Part shown: positions 19,640 through 54,649 of the stretch, in pieces
How positions within the stretch are numbered: position 1 is the stretch's first letter
Layout of the letters: the number at the start of each line of letters is the position of its first letter
DNA from: Hyphomicrobiales bacterium
GTDB lineage: Bacteria; Pseudomonadota; Alphaproteobacteria; Rhizobiales; MH13
Assembly: GCA_017642935.1 (NCBI GenBank)
Contig: JAEPOK010000001.1
Coordinates: 186,001 to 250,000 of the forward strand
Length of the DNA stretch: 64,000 nt
Reading direction: 5' to 3'
Program-made: the position numbers and the translations under genes
Notes under the pieces: model-generated
Seen by the model: the letters and a program-made list of their open reading frames with translations, nothing else
Database searches by the model: none
Told to the model about the DNA's origin: nothing

Positions 19640-19737
19640 CGGCGCCACCCAATGGACCAGCGCAAGGTGCGACGCAAGCGCCCAAGTGGCGTGACACCTA
19701 CTGGACAGGGTCACTGCCTCGGCCTATGTCTCCTCTT

Positions 19738-19822
19738 GCTCACCGGGGTGCCCTTTGACGAGGGCTGAGATGCTGACGCGAACCCGTAGAACCTGATCCG
19801 GATCATGCCGGCGGAGGGATTT
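19738..19822 (+). ncRNA. TPP riboswitch (THI element)
   Basis: The conserved blocks of the thiamine pyrophosphate riboswitch are all present in order. GGGGTGCC is at 19745-19752 and AGGGCTGAGA at 19761-19770. GAACCTGATCCGGATCATGC runs from 19789, and CCGGCGGAGGGA follows to 19820. The element ends about 90 bases before thiB, leaving room for an expression platform. Binding TPP should switch off the thiBPQ transporter. Confidence 0.95.
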
Positions 19823-19911
19823 GGGCCAGCGTCTTGCCGTCTCGGCAAAGCGCTATCTCAACATCTGTCATCCGTTTGGTGTTCCGCTCTTTTGACGTGG
19901 AGACCTTACCT

Positions 19912-20928
19912 ATGGCCAATCGCCTTACCCAGTTCACAGCCTGTGCCGCTCTCGCAACCGCGATAGCGCTGCCCACCGCAGCGAGCGCTCAAGACCGCAC
20001 GCTGACCATCTACACCTATGACAGTTTCGTCGCCGATTGGGGCCTTGGCCCGGTCTGGCAGGAGATGTTCGAGGCGCAGTGCGATTGCACCATCGAATGG
20101 GTCGCGCCCGGCGATGGTGTGGCGGTGCTTAGCCGCCTGCGTTTTGAAGGTGACTCGACGGACGCCGATCTTGTTTTAGGGCTTGATCAGAACCTGATCG
20201 TGGCCGCCAAGCAAACCGGGTTGCTGGCGCCGCATGAGGCTGATCTGTCGGTTTTGCAGATGCCCGTCGATTGGACCGACGACACGTTCGTGCCGTTCGA
20301 TTTTGGCTATTTTGCCGTGATGTACGATGCGGAAGCGGTTGAGAACCCGCCGTCGAGCTTGGCAGAATTGATCGATGGCCCCTCCGACCAACCGCTGGTC
20401 ATTCAGGACCCACGCACCTCTACCCCGGGGCTTGGCATGGTGCTCTGGATGAAGGCCGTTTACGGCGATGAGGCCAACGAAAAATGGGCTGAGCTTTCCG
20501 ACCGAATCCTTACTGTGACGCCGGGTTGGAGCGAGGCCTATAGTCTGTTCACCTCTGGCGAAACGCCGATGGTGCTCAGCTACACCACCTCTGCCGCCTA
20601 TCACATGCTGGTCGAAGAAGAGGAGCGTTATCAGGCACTTGCATTTGACGAGGGTCATTACATCCAGATCGAGGTCGGTGCCGCGATCAAGGATTCGCCG
20701 GAGCTCGATCTCGCCCGTCAGTTCCTCGATTTCATGATTTCGGCCGAAGCGCAGGCGGTGATGCCGGTCAATCATTGGATGATGCCGGTGCGTGAGCCGT
20801 CCGACCCTCTGCCGGCCGTGTTTGACCGTCTTGTTGAGCCAACACAGGTGCTTTCCATCGATGCCGAGACGATCGCCGAGCAGCGTGCCGGTTGGGTCGA
20901 TGAATGGCTCGACGCGATGAGCCGCTAG
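19912..20928 (+). CDS. thiB: Thiamine ABC transporter, periplasmic binding protein
   Basis: This periplasmic receptor for thiamine or thiamine phosphates has 338 residues. ATG 19912 follows GGAGA and gives a signal peptide MANRLTQFTACAALATAIALPTAASAQ. The mature start RTLTIYTYDSFVADWGLGPVWQEMFEAQC, then FDFGYFAVMYD and PGLGMVLWMKAVYGD, are typical of ThiB. The gene is under a TPP riboswitch and is followed by thiP and thiQ, giving the complete importer. Confidence 0.93.
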   Translation: MANRLTQFTACAALATAIALPTAASAQDRTLTIYTYDSFVADWGLGPVWQEMFEAQCDCTIEWVAPGDGVAVLSRLRFEGDSTDADLVLGLDQNLIVAAKQTGLLAPHEADLSVLQMPVDWTDDTFVPFDFGYFAVMYDAEAVENPPSSLAELIDGPSDQPLVIQDPRTSTPGLGMVLWMKAVYGDEANEKWAELSDRILTVTPGWSEAYSLFTSGETPMVLSYTTSAAYHMLVEEEERYQALAFDEGHYIQIEVGAAIKDSPELDLARQFLDFMISAEAQAVMPVNHWMMPVREPSDPLPAVFDRLVEPTQVLSIDAETIAEQRAGWVDEWLDAMSR

Positions 20929-20951
20929 CAGCACCACCAGGGAACAGGTCG

Positions 20952-22535
20952 ATGCGCGCCAGCGCCCTGCCAGGGGTCATTGTTGTGGCCGGATTTGGCG
21001 CGTTCATCGCGCTGGCGCTCGTCATGCTCGTCATGGCGGGCGGGTCCGGCCTTCCGGTGGATCGCCTCACCAGTCCCTACACGCGCTCGCTGCTTGGTTT
21101 CACCTTGCTGCAGTCGACCTTGTCGGTGACGCTCTCGGTGCTTGGCGCACTCCCGTTGGTCGTCGTGATGCATCGCCACCAGCGGTTTTTTGGGCGGGCG
21201 GCGTTGGTGCGCCTGCTGGCTCTCCCGCTGGCCTTGCCGCCCTTGGTCGCGGTGTTCGGCCTATTGGATGTGTGGGGCCGCAATGGGCTTGTCTCCTGGA
21301 TGCTGCAACAGGCCGGCTTCGACGTTCGGCTGGATGTTTTTGGCCTGCAGGGCGTTCTTCTGGCGCACGTGTTCTTCAACTTGCCGCTGGCCGCACGCCT
21401 GATGCTGACGCATTTGGAGCGGCAACCGGCCACGACCTTTCGCCTCGCCGATCAGCTTGGATTGGAGGGCTGGAACCGGTTCTTCCGTCTCGAATGGCCT
21501 TTGCTTCGTGCGCATCTGCCGGGCGTTGCCGGTCTCATCATGATGCTCTGCATTGGCTCCTTCACGCTCGTTCTGACGTTGGGTGGCGGACCATCGTCCT
21601 CAACCTTTGAGGTTGCGATCTATCAGGCGCTACGCTTTGACTTTGATCCGGGTCTGGCCGCGCTCTACACGATGGTTCAGCTGACCTTGGCCGGCGCCGT
21701 GCTTCTGTTTTTGACCAGACTTGGCGGCGCACCTGAGGATAGAGCTGGGGCGCTGCCGACCAGTGAAGCACGGGCAAGACCCTTGCCGCTCTGGGGTCGT
21801 GCAATCTTAGGCTTGGCACTTCTCTTTTTGGTCCTCCCGCTTGTGGCTCTTGTGGTCGGTGGGTTAATTGCCGAATGGGGGCGGCTTTTCGGCATGGCGC
21901 GGCTCTGGTCGGCCGTCGGAACCAGTTTGGCCATCGCAACGGTCGCGGCAATCTTGGCGACAGGCGCCAGCTACGCGCTGCTTGTGGCGCGCGAGCGCGG
22001 ATTTCAGCCCCGAAGCACGGCGCTGCGCCTCTATGAGACCGGGTATGGCATGGTTGGATCGGCGGTGTTGGCGGTGCCGCCGCTTGTCCTGGGCGCCGGA
22101 TGGTTTTTGGCGATGCGTGGTTGGCCGGCGCCGACCTTCATCGCTGGGTGCCTGGTTGTTTTGGTCAACGCCTTGATGGCGCTGCCCTTTGTCCTGCGCA
22201 TCATGAGTCCGGCCTTTCAGGCCTCCGAACGGCGCTATGGCGCCCTTTCGGCCAGCCTCGGCATGACAGGTCTGCATCGTTTTGCCCGTGTGGATGCGCC
22301 GGTTTTGGCACGCCCGTTTGCGGTTGCGCTTGCTTTCGCGCTGGTGCTTTCGGTCGGCGATCTGGGAGCGGCCGCTTTGTTTGGGGCCTATGATTTGGTG
22401 ACGCTGCCGGTTCTGATCCTCAACCTGATGGGCAGCTATCGCACCGATGATGCAGCAGGCGTTGCACTGCTGCTTGGGGTTTTCGTTTTTGTGCTCATCG
22501 CGCTTGCTGAGCGTACGCATAGGGTTTTGGGATGA
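20952..22535 (+). CDS. thiP: Thiamine ABC transporter, permease
   Basis: This inner-membrane protein with two fused permease halves is 527 residues from ATG 20952 (MRASALPGVIVVAGFG). A GTG at 20904 overlapping thiB is an alternative and would add 16 residues. Each half carries a binding-protein-dependent permease motif, for example RLADQLGLEGWNRFFRLEWPLLRAHLPGVAG and RYGALSASLGMTGLHRFARVDAPVLARPFA. About twelve helices are visible, as in E. coli ThiP (536 residues). The stop overlaps the thiQ start (ATGA). Confidence 0.93.
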   Translation: MRASALPGVIVVAGFGAFIALALVMLVMAGGSGLPVDRLTSPYTRSLLGFTLLQSTLSVTLSVLGALPLVVVMHRHQRFFGRAALVRLLALPLALPPLVAVFGLLDVWGRNGLVSWMLQQAGFDVRLDVFGLQGVLLAHVFFNLPLAARLMLTHLERQPATTFRLADQLGLEGWNRFFRLEWPLLRAHLPGVAGLIMMLCIGSFTLVLTLGGGPSSSTFEVAIYQALRFDFDPGLAALYTMVQLTLAGAVLLFLTRLGGAPEDRAGALPTSEARARPLPLWGRAILGLALLFLVLPLVALVVGGLIAEWGRLFGMARLWSAVGTSLAIATVAAILATGASYALLVARERGFQPRSTALRLYETGYGMVGSAVLAVPPLVLGAGWFLAMRGWPAPTFIAGCLVVLVNALMALPFVLRIMSPAFQASERRYGALSASLGMTGLHRFARVDAPVLARPFAVALAFALVLSVGDLGAAALFGAYDLVTLPVLILNLMGSYRTDDAAGVALLLGVFVFVLIALAERTHRVLG

Positions 22536-48295: not shown

Positions 48296-49393
48296 TTACG
48301 TGTTGAACTTGAAAAGCAGCACATCACCATCCTGGACGACATATTCCTTGCCTTCGTCGCGCGCCTTGCCGGCCTCCTTGGCCGCCGTTTCACCTTTCAG
48401 CGCGACATAGTCGTCATAGGCAATGGTCTGCGCCCGGATGAAGCCGCGTTCAAAATCGGTGTGGATGACCCCAGCGGCCTGCGGCGCCTTGGTGCCGGTG
48501 GTGATGGTCCAGGCGCGCGTTTCTTTCGGCCCGGCGGTGAAATAGGTGACGAGACCCAGCAGCGCGTAGCCTTCGCGGATCAGGCGGTCGAGGCCCGCTT
48601 CTTCCAGGCCCAGCGTTTCCAGGAACTCGGCGTGTTCGTCCTGGGGCAGCACGGCCACCTCAGCCTCAATAGCCGCAGAGATCACAACGCTGCGCGCGCC
48701 GGTTTCTTTGGCGTAGGCCTCAACCTTGGCCGAGTAGGCATTGCCATCGCCGGCGGCGTCTTCCTCAACGTTGCAAACATAAAGGATCGGCTTGGAGGTC
48801 AGGAGGTTGAGCATCTGAAATGCCTTTTCCTCCTCCGCTGAGCGCTCCACCAAACGGGCCGGTTTGCCGTTCTGCAGCATCTCCAACGCCTGTTCCATGA
48901 TCGGCAGGATGGTCAGTGCTTCCTTGTCTTTGCCGGAAGCTTTCTTGCGCGTTGCGACGACGCGTTTTTCTAGGCTCTCCAGGTCGGCGAGCATCAGCTC
49001 GGTTTCGATGGTCTCAATGTCCGCCAGCGGTTCGATTTTCCCGTCGACATGAGTGATGTCTTCGTCCTCAAAGCAGCGTACGACGTGCACTATGGCATCG
49101 ACCTCGCGAATGTTGGCCAGGAACTGGTTGCCCAAGCCTTCGCCTGAGGCCGCGCCGCGTACGAGGCCGGCAATGTCGACAAAGGTGATACGTGTTGGGA
49201 TGATCTCTTTCGACTGGGCAATCGCGGCGATCTCATCCAGGCGCGGATCGGGTACCGCCACATCGCCGGTGTTCGGCTCGATGGTGCAGAACGGATAGTT
49301 GGCCGCCTGGGCAGCCGCCGTTTTGGTCAGCGCGTTGAAAAGGGTCGATTTGCCAACATTGGGCAGGCCGACAATGCCGCATTTAAAACCCAT
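48296..49393 (-). CDS. ychF: Ribosome-associated ATPase YchF (OLA1 family)
   Basis: This 365-residue P-loop protein prefers ATP over GTP and binds ribosomes. The N-terminus [43 protein letters not shown] contains the P-loop. [30 protein letters not shown] and YVCNVEED (G4 variant) follow, and the C-terminal TGS-type part contains [29 protein letters not shown]. It lies 15 bases after pth, the usual neighbour. Confidence 0.95.
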
Positions 49394-49408
49394 CGGGCTC
49401 TCTCTTTC

Positions 49409-50164
49409 TTAGGTGTCTTTGGTGCCGAGCAGCTTTTTCAGCATGTCGGCCATCGGTCCCTTGGTTGGAACTTTCGGTGCTGTGGTTTGCCGTGCCTGAC
49501 GGATATGAGATTGGCCGCTTCCGGTGGCGGCGGACGTTTGCGTTGAAGCTTTCTTCTCAGCCTTGGCGGGTTTCTCAGACCGCCACTGTGCCGTCGCCTC
49601 GTTTAGGCGGGCATTCAGGTCGCTGTCTTTGCCGTCGAGTGCCAGATCGATCGAGCGCGCCAACTCCTCGCAGACCGCGTTTACCCAGGGTTCATCGGCC
49701 TTGGGGAAGTCTTTCAGGACATAGCCTGAGACCAGATCCTTGTGGCCAGGGTGGCCAATGCCGAGGCGAATGCGGCGATAGTCTTTGCCAAGATGTGCGT
49801 CCAGGCTCTTCAAGCCATTATGCCCGCCATGGCCACCGCCGGCTTTAATCCGGGTGCGCCCTGGTTCGAGATCAAGCTCATCATGGATTGCCGTCACATC
49901 GCCTGCCTCGAGCTTGTAGAAGCGGGCGATCTCACCAGCGGCCTGACCGGACAGATTCATGAAGGTTGTCGGCTTGGCGAGCAGCACTTTGTGGGCGCCA
50001 TTTGGCCCTTCTATGCGGCCTTCGCTAACCTGCGCAGAGAAACGCGAACGCCACGGCGAAAAGCCGTGGCGCGCATGGATGGCATCAACGGCCATGAAGC
50101 CGATATTGTGCCGATTTTGGGCGTACTGACCGCCTGGATTGCCAAGGCCGACAAGCAGATGCAT
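49409..50164 (-). CDS. pth: Peptidyl-tRNA hydrolase
   Basis: The enzyme releases peptides from stalled peptidyl-tRNA. MHLLVGLGNPGGQYAQNRHNIGFMAVDAI contains the catalytic His in the NRHN motif; KPTTFMNLSGQAAGEIA, AIHDELDLEPGRTRIKAGGGHGGHNGLKSL and RLGIGHPGHKDLVSGYVL are family signatures. At 251 residues it carries a C-terminal Lys/Ala/Gln-rich tail of about 60 residues beyond the bacterial core, ending in MADMLKKLLG. GAGG precedes the ATG. In the rplY-pth-ychF cluster. Confidence 0.95.
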   Translation of the reverse strand: MHLLVGLGNPGGQYAQNRHNIGFMAVDAIHARHGFSPWRSRFSAQVSEGRIEGPNGAHKVLLAKPTTFMNLSGQAAGEIARFYKLEAGDVTAIHDELDLEPGRTRIKAGGGHGGHNGLKSLDAHLGKDYRRIRLGIGHPGHKDLVSGYVLKDFPKADEPWVNAVCEELARSIDLALDGKDSDLNARLNEATAQWRSEKPAKAEKKASTQTSAATGSGQSHIRQARQTTAPKVPTKGPMADMLKKLLGTKDT

Positions 50165-50211
50165 GGCTCGCCTCGTTCAGGTGGACCGGACCAAAGCCTA
50201 GTCTTCCAAAC

Positions 50212-50868
50212 CTAGTCTTCGGCTTCTTCCTCGCCGACGGTCGGCACTTCGGCCGGTGTTTCTGCTGCATCCTCGTCCGCTTCGTCTTCGTCGCTCTTCA
50301 GCGCTGCAGGCGAGGCGATCGTGGCGATCACGAAGTCACGATCGGTGATCGTAGGTTCGGCGCCATCAGGCAGGTTGATCGCTGAGATGCCAAGCGTGTC
50401 GCCAAGCTCAGCGGTGCCAAGGTCGAGTTCCAGGAACTCAGGGATCGCGTTGGCTGGGCAGTTGAGTTCCACTTCGTGGCGCACAACGTTCAACACGCCA
50501 CCAGCTTTCAGCCCGGGCGAGATTTCCTCGTTGAGGAAGTGCACCGGAATGTTGACCGTCAGCGTTGCACCTTTAGCCACGCGCAGGAAATCAACATGCA
50601 TTGGAAAGTCGCGCACGGGATCGAGCTCGTAATCCTTGGCGATCACCTGGTGCTTTTCACCGTCAACATCGATCGTGCCAACCGTGGTCATAAAACCACC
50701 GCCATGGATCAACAGGTTCACTTCCTTGTAGGGAAGGGCAAGGGGGATCGGATCTTTTTTGTCGCCGTAAATTACGGCGGGCAGCATGGCCTCGCGTCGC
50801 AGAGCACGGGCAGCTCCCTTGCCGACCCGTTCGCGCCGCGTGCCAGCCAGTTCATAGCTCTCACGCAT
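50212..50868 (-). CDS. rplY: 50S ribosomal protein L25 (general stress protein Ctc)
   Basis: This 5S-rRNA-binding ribosomal protein of the long Ctc form has 218 residues. The L25 domain ([36 protein letters not shown]) is followed by the C-terminal Ctc domain ([55 protein letters not shown]). A Glu/Asp-rich tail closes it. ATG 50868 has GGAGAAA. A terminator hairpin with a competing hairpin lies in its leader, suggesting attenuation. Confidence 0.95.
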
Positions 50869-50890
50869 GGCATTTCTCCAATGAAACAAT

Positions 50891-50922
50891 AAAAAACGCC
50901 GGACAATCCGGCGGTTTCCGCC
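50891..50922 (-). promoter_or_regulatory. Attenuator-like leader of rplY: terminator hairpin and overlapping antiterminator hairpin
   Basis: On the minus strand a 7-bp stem, CGCCGGA/TCCGGCG (complement of 50897-50913), is followed by six T (complement of 50891-50896), ending 22 bases before the rplY ATG. A second hairpin, GGCGG-AAA-CCGCC (complement of 50910-50922), uses four of the same bases. The two cannot form together. No other minus-strand gene lies directly upstream, so the terminator would act on the rplY transcript itself. Confidence 0.65.
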
Positions 50923-51051
50923 GCGCGTGCCTCCAGGGGGGTCTGGCGCGGACGCCGGTCTATAACGCCGATTGGTGTGCGATGCAAATGCTGTTGCGCT
51001 CGACACCGTCAGTGTCATTGCGCTGTCATAGAGCCTCGCCTAGGACGGGGC

Positions 51052-52374
51052 ATGACGACCGGCTATTCCGACACGACCGACCACCATGCGCAAGCAAGTC
51101 TTGGTGATGTAACCACCACTTTCGCGCGTATTGGCGTGCTGTCGTTCGGCGGTCCGGCGGCGCAGATCGGCCTCATGCACAAAGTGGTGGTGGATGAGAA
51201 GAAGTGGTTGCCGGAAGATCGGTTTCTGCACGCGCTCAACTATTGCATGCTTTTGCCAGGTCCGGAGGCGATGCAGTTGGCAACCTATATTGGCTGGCTT
51301 TTGCAAGGTGCACGCGGTGGCCTGATCGCGGGCCTGCTTTTCATTCTGCCCGGTTTCCTCGTCCTGCTTGGGTTGGCGACGCTTTATGTGACGTTGGGCC
51401 ATGTACCCGCGGTTGAGGGACTGTTGTTTGGCCTTCAAGCAGCGGTGGTGGCCATCGTTTTGCAGGCGCTTATCCGATTGTCGCAAAAGACGCTGACCTC
51501 ATCGCTGGCCGCTGCCCTTGCTTTGGCAGCCTTCACGGCGCTTTACATGTTTGATGTGCCTTTCCCGCTGGTCATTGCCGTTGCCGCTTTGATTGGCGTT
51601 GCCGTTTGGGGTCGCGGCGAGGAGCGAATTGAAGCGGTGCCCGTTGCGGCCCACAGCGCGCGCAACGCTTCGTCGCTTTGGGCCGCTGCCGTTTGCGCTG
51701 CTCTTTGGCTGGGACCACTCGTTCTACTGGTACTCGGCCTTGGGCTGCAGTCGCTCTGGACGCAGCAAGCTTTGTTCTTTTCCTGGACGGCGATCATTAC
51801 ATTTGGCGGCGCCTATGCGGTGCTCGCCTACATTACGCAGGTCGTGGTGCAGGATTTTGCCTGGCTTTCCACCGCTGACATGGTGACGGGTTTGGGCTTG
51901 GCCGAATCCACGCCAGGACCGTTGATCCTCGTTCTGGTTTTTGTCGGCTATGTTGCGGCGGCGCAGGCCGGGCTCGACCTCAATCCGGTGCTGGCCGGAC
52001 TGTTGGGCGGTACGCTGACGCTCTGGTTCACGTTCTTGCCGTGCTTTGTCTGGATTTTCCTCGGCGCACCCTTTGTTGAGCGCACGCGGGAAATTGTTTG
52101 GCTGAAGAATGCCTTGCGCGGCGTGACGGCGGCGGTCGTCGGTGTGATCGCGTCGCTTGCAGTCTGGTTCGCGATCCAGGTTCTCTTTGATGTGGTCAGT
52201 GAAGCCCGCCTGGGCCCAGCGAGCTTGCCAGCGCCCATGCTCTCCAGCCTCAACGTTCCCGCCTTGGCGATCGCTGTACTCGCGGGCATTCTGTTGATCG
52301 GATTGCACCGCGGACTGTTCACGACGCTGGGCCTATGCGCCGCGCTGGGTGTTGCGTTTCGACTGTTTGTCTAG
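51052..52374 (+). CDS. chrA: Chromate transporter (CHR/ChrA family)
   Basis: The 440-residue membrane protein has two homologous halves, the long CHR format. The first half has FARIGVLSFGGPAAQIGLMHKVVVDEKKWLPEDRFLHALNYCMLLPGPEAMQLATYIGWLLQG. The second has FSWTAIITFGGAYAVLAYITQVVVQDFAWLSTADMVTGLGLAESTPGPLILVLVFVGYVAA. The FGGP/FGGA and PGP motifs are those needed in ChrA proteins. ATG 51052 follows AGGACGGGG. It exports chromate in known members. It lies between rplY and prs, convergent with a TetR gene. Confidence 0.93.
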   Translation: MTTGYSDTTDHHAQASLGDVTTTFARIGVLSFGGPAAQIGLMHKVVVDEKKWLPEDRFLHALNYCMLLPGPEAMQLATYIGWLLQGARGGLIAGLLFILPGFLVLLGLATLYVTLGHVPAVEGLLFGLQAAVVAIVLQALIRLSQKTLTSSLAAALALAAFTALYMFDVPFPLVIAVAALIGVAVWGRGEERIEAVPVAAHSARNASSLWAAAVCAALWLGPLVLLVLGLGLQSLWTQQALFFSWTAIITFGGAYAVLAYITQVVVQDFAWLSTADMVTGLGLAESTPGPLILVLVFVGYVAAAQAGLDLNPVLAGLLGGTLTLWFTFLPCFVWIFLGAPFVERTREIVWLKNALRGVTAAVVGVIASLAVWFAIQVLFDVVSEARLGPASLPAPMLSSLNVPALAIAVLAGILLIGLHRGLFTTLGLCAALGVAFRLFV

Positions 52375-53084
52375 TCGAGTTTTGCGAGGGCTGCCGCCAT
52401 GCGTGGCTTGAAGCTTTCGGTGCCATAACGGGCGATGAACGTTTCAAGCGTTTCTTTGACGACGCGGTTGCGATGGTTTTGGCTAACCGTGTCACGCACC
52501 TGGAACATGAGCTCATAAAAATATACGGACCGCGCCAACTGCCAGAATTGGTGCGCGGCAAAGTGTTTGTCTGGAATGATTAAGTCGCCAGCCTCCTCGC
52601 TGCGCTCGAAGATGGCCGTCAAATGTTCGACCATTGGCATGATGGCTGCGATGTAAAAGGCATGGCCGACATGTGGCAGGCGCTGCGCCTCAGCCACGCA
52701 GGTGCGATAGACGGCTTGGGCCAGCGGTGAGACCATGAACGTCACCGCAAGCTTGCAACCCTCGATCAGTGCATCTTCGGTGGATGCATTGAATGTCACC
52801 GCACGCAGACGCGCGCGCTGTTCCACGCAGCGGCGGTCGATGACAGCGCGAAACAGCGCCTCCTTCTCATGGAAATATTTGTAGAGCGTGGCTTTGGAGA
52901 TGCCCGCTTTGAGCACGATGTCGTCAACGCTCGCGCCAGCATAGCCATGGGAGAGGAAGATCTCTTCGGCCGCGTCGAGCAATTGATCCTCTTTGCGCCC
53001 GACAGGTTTGCGGGTCATCGCCGCGTCAAGCGCGTGGAGAACCTCGGCAGGCACGGAAGGGGTCTGCGGCGTGGTGTCAGTCAT
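52371..53084 (-). CDS. TetR/AcrR family transcriptional regulator
   Basis: The 237-residue regulator has a helix-turn-helix at residues 30-80: QLLDAAEEIFLSHGYAGASVDDIVLKAGISKATLYKYFHEKEALFRAVI. A C-terminal ligand domain of the AefR-like type follows. Two related inverted repeats (53133-53153 and 53200-53220) lie between it and the divergent small periplasmic gene, indicating autoregulation and control of that gene. Its stop overlaps that of chrA (CTAG). The inducer is unknown. Confidence 0.9.
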   Translation of the reverse strand: MTDTTPQTPSVPAEVLHALDAAMTRKPVGRKEDQLLDAAEEIFLSHGYAGASVDDIVLKAGISKATLYKYFHEKEALFRAVIDRRCVEQRARLRAVTFNASTEDALIEGCKLAVTFMVSPLAQAVYRTCVAEAQRLPHVGHAFYIAAIMPMVEHLTAIFERSEEAGDLIIPDKHFAAHQFWQLARSVYFYELMFQVRDTVSQNHRNRVVKETLETFIARYGTESFKPRMAAALAKLD

Positions 53085-53595: not shown

Positions 53596-54531
53596 TTAGG
53601 CGAAAAGGCTGGAGACTGATTTTTCCAGGGCGGTGCGCATGATCGCCTCGCCAAGCAGGCTTGCAACGGTGACGACACGGATGTTGTGGGCATTTTTCAC
53701 CGCTTCGGTGGTCTCGATCGTATCGGTGATCACCAGCTCTTTGAGGTTTGAACCGGCGATCCGCGTCACGGCGCCGCCTGAGAGCACACCATGTGTGATG
53801 TAGGCTGAGACCTCTTTGGCGCCCATGCCCAGCAGCGCATCGGCCGCATTGCACAGCGTGCCACCGGAATCGATGATGTCATCGACCAACAGGCACGACA
53901 TGCCTTCCACTTCGCCGATTACGTTCATCACTTCAGATTCGCCTGGCCGATCGCGGCGCTTGTCGACGATGGCAAGCGGCGCATCGACGCGCTTGGCGAT
54001 GGCGCGAGCGCGCACAACGCCGCCTACATCTGGTGACACCACCGCCAACGGACCGTTGGCCGTGTAGTGGTCCATAATGTCTTTGGAGATCACCGGCTCG
54101 GCGAAAAGGTTGTCGGTGGGGATATCGAAGAAGCCCTGAATTTGTCCGGCGTGCAGATCAATGGTCAGCACGCGGTCTGTGCCTGCCTGGGTGATCATGT
54201 TGGCGACCAATTTGGCGGAGATCGGCGTGCGACCTGCCGTGCGTCGATCCTGACGCGCGTAACCGAAGTAAGGAATCACCGTTGTGATGCGCTTGGCGGA
54301 GGATCGACGCAGCGCATCGACCAGAATCAGCATCTCCATCAGATTGTCGTTGGCCGGAAAACTGGTGGACTGGAGAACGAACACATCCTCGCCGCGGACA
54401 TTTTCCTGGATTTCAACGAATATTTCCTTGTCGGCAAAGCGCCGGACGTCCGCTTTGCAGAGCGGCACATCAAGATAGCCCGCAATGGCGTTGGCCAGCG
54501 CGAGGTTGGAGTTTCCGGCGACAAGCTTCAT
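53596..54531 (-). CDS. prs: Ribose-phosphate pyrophosphokinase
   Basis: The 311-residue enzyme makes PRPP from ribose 5-phosphate and [65 protein letters not shown] is the standard start. [26 protein letters not shown] and [18 protein letters not shown] (PRPP-binding) are visible. ATG 54531 is selected over an upstream in-frame codon by homology. In many Hyphomicrobiales prs is followed by rplY-pth-ychF; here a chrA-tetR module separates them. Confidence 0.95.
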
Positions 54532-54649
54532 GTGGGCGGTCCTGAACGGGATAGGTCGCGCGTGTGTTAGCGAAAGGGTACCCGTGAGTCCATGCACCGC
54601 TTTGGGCGTAGGTGACCGATATGTTGACGCTGGCGAGACGCAGCTTGGG

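Follow-up and report, generated by a model that had tools for sequence, protein, structure and literature searches.

The question raised by this locus is how synthesis of ribosomal protein bL25 is controlled, and which features of the rplY leader would allow for such control. The window (the whole 64,000-nt stretch of DNA that was analysed) carries rplY on its minus strand, and the gene product matches NCBIfam NF004128 with 282.9 bits (cut-off 174) and combines the Pfam domains PF01386 and PF14693, the arrangement of bL25/CTC with a TL5 C-terminal domain. Positions of the features discussed here are collected in Table 1. A sequence-only reading of the same DNA had proposed an attenuator in this leader, in which a terminator and an overlapping hairpin compete, and had argued for control of rplY itself from a lack of upstream minus-strand genes for about 2 kb. 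That distance needs correction, since a TetR-like gene ends ~1.4 kb away; this gene on the minus strand and a chromate transporter gene on the plus strand separate prs (53596-54597) from rplY. Control of rplY itself through a structured leader is strongly supported by the comparison across relatives presented below. In one relative (L220), the apparent end of prs lies, by reading, directly 5′ of the rplY leader.

The rplY start that aligns with the relatives is 50868. The reading frame stays open 5′ of it to an ATG at 51018 (268-aa ORF; stretch 50869-51018, minus strand), and automatic start calling could swallow the leader at that ATG. The promoter listed in Table 1 is absent from the output of a consensus promoter scan, and a transcription start near 50952 is predicted as likely.

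Table 1 Features of the rplY leader and its surroundings, in window coordinates
Feature	Position	Strand	Remarks
rplY, ribosomal protein bL25/CTC, 218 aa	50212-50868	−	ATG at 50868
Coding-region hairpin, codons 14-21	50807-50829	−	CGGG/CCCG and CGGC/GCUG, loop AAGGGA 50820-50815
Shine-Dalgarno GGAG of rplY	50876-50879	−	by reading
Intrinsic terminator	50891-50913	−	CGCCGGATTGTCCGGCG 50913-50897, then T6 50896-50891
GGCGG-AAA-CCGCC hairpin, possible antiterminator	50910-50922	−	present in sequence
Hairpin P1, predicted mRNA 5′ end	50921-50951	−	CCGCGC/GCGCGG, conserved loop inside
Conserved motif CCCCCCTGGAGG, consensus CACCCYTGGAGG	50930-50941	−	within P1
Likely rplY promoter	50959-50987	−	TTGCAT 50987-50982, 17-nt spacer, TATAGA 50964-50959; by reading
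Chromate transporter gene	starts 51052 (ATG by reading)	+	PF02417
TetR-like gene	52371-53084	−	by reading; nearest minus-strand gene upstream of rplY

The leader was compared with rplY upstream regions from 109 loci (L003-L111) drawn from public named genomes and from the family and order to which the window belongs, from 60 genomes that represent roughly one per genus of the order where a taxonomic place was listed, from 60 genomes of the class (one per family), from 20 more of the class that follow up exceptions and from 20 families that belong to the phylum but not to the class. Out of 230 upstream stretches, 227 are distinct; the identical pairs (L004/L032, L005/L033 and L015/L108) are counted twice in the counts of motifs, promoters, terminators, kissing pairs and leader lengths, and the codon count over 108 genes leaves out L032 and L033.

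A covarying hairpin where the mRNA is predicted to begin

The conserved part of the leader begins with a 5′-terminal hairpin, P1, which the sequence-only reading had missed together with its partner in the coding region. The loop of P1 is near-invariant (ACCCYUGGAG; CCCCCUGGAG in the window), and the motif that contains it, [N]CCC[C/T]TGGAGG, is present in 163 of the 169 leaders of the first set. Among 207 motif-bearing sequences, 195 carry the consensus CACCCYTGGAGG, divided into CACCCTTGGAGG (108) and CACCCCTGGAGG (87), nine carry the form of the window, the window included, and the last three are otherwise, one of them (L221) being a wrong match. The genome of the window has a single perfect match to the motif with its spacing, and every other place is at least one base off. 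A stretch of 23S rRNA, ACCACCCTTGAAG (L260:685-697), resembles the U variant of the motif, a likeness that is probably due to chance.

A TATA-like hexamer is found in 135 of the 207 motif-bearing relatives, and 95 of these have it 16-17 nt upstream of the motif; the distance in the window is 17 nt. From this spacing between the −10 element and the motif, P1 is predicted to lie right at the 5′ terminus of the mRNA. The distance from motif to start codon is variable, at ~14-200 nt and below ~40 nt in 15 of 193 leaders, with the start codon placed at a fixed distance before the coding block described below.

In the isolated leader of the window, P1 pairs with a probability of 0.95-0.98. Its covariation score over 55 sequences of the class and outgroup is 0.411, compared with 0.182 ± 0.023 after shuffling (0 of 500 shuffles as high), and all six slid versions score lower. 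Moreover, P1 duplexes formed with their own partner beat swapped ones in 143 of 164 cases, and in 47 of 65 within the GAC group, the subgroup of the window in which GA precedes the motif. The 99 distinct sequences outside that group form the first pair below the loop-closing pair in 66 cases vs 40.6 ± 3.9 in shuffles and the next pair in 77 vs 43.0 ± 4.0, with a signal that fades outwards. The 65 sequences of the GAC group carry a bulged variant of P1 with weaker covariation, and because of this bulge an ungapped pairing tried over all 170 distinct sequences paired poorly and was set aside. Counts of covarying pairs and of pair types give no excess over shuffles for either P1 or the coding-region stem. 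By the covariation score and the duplex comparison, P1 is a conserved RNA stem with covarying arms.

The near-invariance of UGGAG, one half of the P1 loop, is not accounted for by the loop pairing described below, in which these bases take no part. Of the 78 long leaders in the GAC group (for example L034-L109), 72 carry its complement, CUCCA, ~30 nt ahead of the rplY start codon, where shuffles give a rate of 11%. As a general partner of UGGAG, CUCCA was rejected, being found in 1 of 30 and 0 of 43 leaders elsewhere, and it is a feature of this lineage only. Within the GAC group it may provide a second pairing that switches the P1 loop between partners.

A second hairpin inside the coding region

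The partner of P1 lies at codons 14-21 of rplY, which in the window read CGG GTC GGC AAG GGA GCT GCC CGT and in the consensus CGN GYN GGN AAG GGG KCC GCN CGN, with AAGGGG as the loop. The block of the window folds on its own at −12.2 kcal/mol. The glycine codon in the loop is GGG in 104 of 108 genes and GGA in the other four, while GGG makes up only 22 of the 1445 glycine codons elsewhere in the same genes. Within the stem, the third base of the first codon (mostly Arg) can pair with that of the second Ala/Ser codon in 97 out of 110 distinct blocks, where 1000 shuffles give 71.2 ± 3.1; the pairs used are G-C, A-U, U-A, C-G and G-U. Among the 18 blocks whose leaders lack the motif, the same positions pair in 9 cases vs 8.0 ± 2.0 in shuffles. 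These are synonymous sites, and on this comparison conservation of the protein does not explain their pairing.

The covariation score of the coding stem is 0.194 vs 0.123 ± 0.011 for shuffles (0 of 500 as high) in a 70-sequence alignment made up of the blocks that fit the search pattern, and one of the seven pairs changes on both sides, the only one to do so. Covariation among relatives had been put forward in the sequence-only reading as a check on the leader; run on P1 and the coding-region stem, this check supports both of these stems. When the first 174 nt of the window's mRNA are folded, the minimum-energy structure keeps the coding hairpin and loses P1, a modelled result that speaks against a simple static picture.

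Complementary loops that occur together

What would connect two hairpins on opposite sides of the translation start? The CCCYU of the leader loop is complementary to the A(A)GGGG of the coding loop, and their pairing would span the Shine-Dalgarno sequence and the start codon. In the window, the bases C, C, C and U at 50938-50935 are able to pair with 50819-50816. Both parts are present in 220 sequences; five pairs form in 208 of them and four are listed for the other 12, although three of these 12 (L012, L125 and L131) really form five, since their loop is AAGGGG and the search pattern was one base off; L221 and L226, which have AAA for Lys, are possibly shifted in the same way. All four genomes of the window's genus have GGA as the loop codon with an unchanged leader, and so form four kissing pairs instead of five. 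The kissing helix is nearly invariant, and for this reason covariation within it rests on one change in one family (f62), where a leader UCCCU and a coding AGGGA are found together in 4 of 4 genomes examined, which is a compensatory change.

The two parts also come and go together. In a set of 160 genomes from 118 families (20 of them picked to follow up exceptions, the window's genus left out), the 110 genomes with the motif have GGG in 104 cases, GGA in five and GGC in one, whereas the 50 without it have GGG in five and another codon in 45. With families taken from their labels, joint loss is seen inside three of them, namely f147 (both parts in L243, neither in L244), f137 (L248 and L247) and f80 (L259 and L258). 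Of the 20 families from elsewhere in the phylum, six have both parts, one (L268) combines GGG with a leader that lacks the motif, and the other 13 have neither part; in the six, the coding stem is built differently, by reading, around the same loop. Escherichia coli K-12 has a leader without the motif and GGT as the glycine codon. Exceptions are L211, with GGC in the loop, and family f106 (L220, L245 and L246) together with L257, which keep GGG without the leader motif; the f106 leaders have lost the UGGAG half, and a C-rich stretch remains, by reading, in L220 and L245. Both hairpins, the complementarity of their loops, their co-occurrence and the link to rplY thus emerge directly from the comparison of sequences.

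Attachment to rplY and known bL25 leaders

The link to rplY was followed with a P1 covariance model, built from 55 sequences and run over 57 genomes of the class up to an E-value of 1. All 22 matches with E < 0.003 lie directly upstream of rplY (14 placed there by tblastn, 8 by position); ten of these are in genomes that fed the model and are found there by construction, and 12 are in genomes that gave it no sequence. The matches considered are these 22 and the next one, which has E 0.006 and lies in G250 ~10 kb from rplY, with no rplY in the surrounding stretch. The model gives the window's own P1 15.2 bits and misses it in a genome-wide search at E up to 1; the two matches in that genome (E 0.026 and 0.075) are both elsewhere than rplY. 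As in r-protein leaders generally, a covarying structured element is therefore found consistently upstream of an r-protein gene. Rfam has no match for the window leader (best E 0.51, 17.7 bits) or, at gathering score, for the leaders of nine relatives.

Is this the bL25 leader that is already known? Autoregulation by bL25 is described, in the part of the account available, for E. coli and related gamma-proteobacteria with a short bL25 (PMC10931766), and the portion of an r-leader survey that was available places the L25 r-leader in Enterobacteria only (PMC7247131). The main text of a 50-genome survey, as far as it was accessible, makes no mention of rplY or L25 (PMC11109978), a term search of the text of PMC2864571 gives neither name, and PMC1273637, PMC2704228 and PMC8632094 show no rplY at the level of their listings. 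No description of an alphaproteobacterial rplY leader was found in the literature searched, which was poor in subscription papers. The element described here and the enterobacterial L25 r-leader have in common the same gene and a structured 5′ leader, through which, in the partial account cited, bL25 controls its own translation there, and the element of the window likewise lies in the 5′ UTR of rplY. However, the enterobacterial leader is described as one irregular hairpin before a weak conserved GAGA Shine-Dalgarno sequence in species with a short bL25 only, whereas the arrangement here is a 5′-terminal hairpin with a fixed loop and a hairpin in the coding region; the leader of the window has P1, the terminator and a GGAG Shine-Dalgarno sequence, and its bL25 is the two-domain protein (PF01386 and PF14693) rather than the short one-domain form.

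Comparable architectures exist in the leaders of other r-protein genes. The S15 (rpsO) and S4 (alpha operon) leaders form pseudoknots in which the r-protein stabilizes a tertiary pairing around the start and traps or blocks the 30S subunit; there a leader loop pairs with sequence near the start codon, whereas here two hairpin loops would kiss, one of them at codons 14-21. In the L20 leader, distant parts of the mRNA pair in a long-range pseudoknot to form the operator, a likeness in distant pairing with a different gene, fold and sequence. The L10, S10 and L20 leaders also serve as attenuators with an intrinsic terminator between structured leader and gene, and the terminator of the window's genus is placed alike, but it is lineage-specific and not the conserved part.

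The terminator is real and accessory

The sequence-only reading rested on a terminator hairpin with six T between the promoter region and the rplY start, and this terminator is confirmed. Its stem has seven pairs, six of them G-C, and a stem of this quality (seven pairs with at least six G-C, then T6) occurs once in the 64-kb window over both strands, whereas 200 dinucleotide shuffles of positions 48500-52500 (minus strand) contain no such stem. A looser consensus scan returns 8 sites where 6.7 are expected by chance, so that only the quality of the rplY-leader terminator stands out. The GGCGG-AAA-CCGCC hairpin shares four bases (50913-50910) with the first terminator arm, exactly as had been stated, and the two are mutually exclusive; its overlap with P1 amounts to two bases (50922-50921) in the 3′ arm of that hairpin.

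The proposed switch between these two hairpins is not what is conserved, and the antiterminator is weak. Pair probabilities in the window leader are 0.73-1.0 for the terminator and at most 0.001 for the antiterminator, with folding energies of −12.3 and −8.5 kcal/mol, and P1 and the terminator fold together at −21.6 kcal/mol, the antiterminator remaining marginal. The default fold of the leader, as modelled, is thus the terminator. The antiterminator forms in the fold of a shorter RNA, before the terminator arm exists, and an equivalent is visible by reading in two congeneric leaders (L003 and L004) and not clearly in a third (L005). An intrinsic terminator between promoter and gene is what a transcription attenuator requires, but the stable, mutually exclusive antiterminator of such a device is absent, the candidate being exclusive and not stable.

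Strict terminators lie between motif and start codon in 25 of the 207 motif-bearing leaders vs ~0.5% in shuffles, a rate so far above chance that they are likely selected in some lineages. The remaining 182 leaders keep the motif, and no strict terminator was found in them; within the window's genus, L005 lacks one, whereas L003, L004 and the window itself have one. By this distribution, the terminator is an accessory that a minority of lineages have, and it lies outside the conserved core of the leader. Termination would moreover be decided before the coding hairpin is made, which leaves the terminator at most an added layer.

A proposed model for the control of bL25 synthesis

We propose that the P1 loop ACCCYUGGAG at the 5′ end of the mRNA and the loop AAGGGG at codons 14-21 would pair, and that this kiss would close the Shine-Dalgarno sequence and the start codon into a lasso that hinders binding of the 30S subunit. 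Free bL25, when in excess over 5S rRNA, would bind and stabilize the kissing complex and repress its own synthesis. Where a terminator lies between P1 and the start, as in the window's genus and in some others, it would add a transcriptional layer, which is possible because formation of P1 is compatible with the terminator. Two hairpins that flank the initiation region, with loops able to pair whatever the spacing between them, suit such a translational lasso. We infer from these features that the loops kiss in the cell, that the sign of control is repression, that bL25 is the ligand and that some lineages use the terminator; bL25 is a reasonable candidate by analogy, since other r-leaders are analogous and the strong matches to the element sit at rplY. 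Most likely, then, the element is an autogenous bL25 leader that blocks initiation, with ligand and action deduced from such parallels, and the full proposal (a two-part kissing element stabilized by bL25 that represses its own initiation, with a terminator layer in some lineages) is given a rough probability of 0.56.

Could the kissing element work with no protein ligand at all? It might instead sense translation, with a translating ribosome that opens the coding hairpin and so makes the initiation region accessible; when no ribosome is present, the lasso would close, giving all-or-none expression or a coupling to 30S availability, and the GGAG of the P1 loop would perhaps serve as a 30S standby site. 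The coding hairpin does lie in the path of the first elongating ribosome, the near-invariant UGGAG is Shine-Dalgarno-like and unneeded for the kiss, and by eye the 5S rRNA of the window's genome, the target of bL25, has no convincing likeness to either loop. Attachment to an r-protein gene that is autoregulated in gamma-proteobacteria, according to the part of PMC10931766 available, favours a protein ligand, and translation sensing is considered unlikely. A quite different role would be in mRNA stability or processing, in which P1 shields the 5′ end and the kiss circularizes the start of the mRNA against RNase E, initiation not being directly affected. The predicted place of P1 at the 5′ terminus is that of some known structures that stabilize mRNAs, but this role gives no reason for the partner to sit in the coding region, immediately beyond the initiation region, at every leader length (~14-200 nt), and it is considered improbable.

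The attenuator of the sequence-only reading, in which antiterminator and terminator compete and bL25 favours termination, draws on an excellent and rare terminator and on the excess of such structures among the leaders. Against it stand the many leaders that keep the motif with no strict terminator found, an antiterminator 3.8 kcal/mol weaker and unpopulated in the terminated RNA, and a conserved coding hairpin which, arising after termination has been decided, would be left unexplained; as the main mechanism it is rather doubtful. The loops might also never pair, the same factor (bL25 or rRNA) binding each of them separately with complementarity as a by-product. Such separate binding would fit a pairing that is nearly invariant and mostly untried by variation, and the two halves of the P1 loop do resemble anti-Shine-Dalgarno and Shine-Dalgarno sequences; however, the compensatory change in f62, the joint loss in three families and loops that stay fixed while the stem sequences vary make it very improbable.

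Returning to the kissing element, we consider probable a broader statement that covers closure of the lasso by either bL25 or translation: an ancient kissing-loop operator, half at the mRNA 5′ end and half in frame within the gene, controls bL25 in most of the class and at least six families outside it, and a rare glycine codon is held for its sake. The element looks like an undescribed feedback switch in a huge bacterial group. If this is true, two-domain bL25 has a widespread and easily testable leader, part of an r-protein operator can lie inside its own gene, and the odd fixed GGG codon of the bL25 gene is explained.

Elsewhere in the window, a TPP riboswitch (RF00059, 68.5 bits) lies on the plus strand at 19734-19837 and adjoins two ORFs (19834-20928 and 20904-22535) that by reading encode a solute-binding protein and a permease, perhaps for thiamine uptake.
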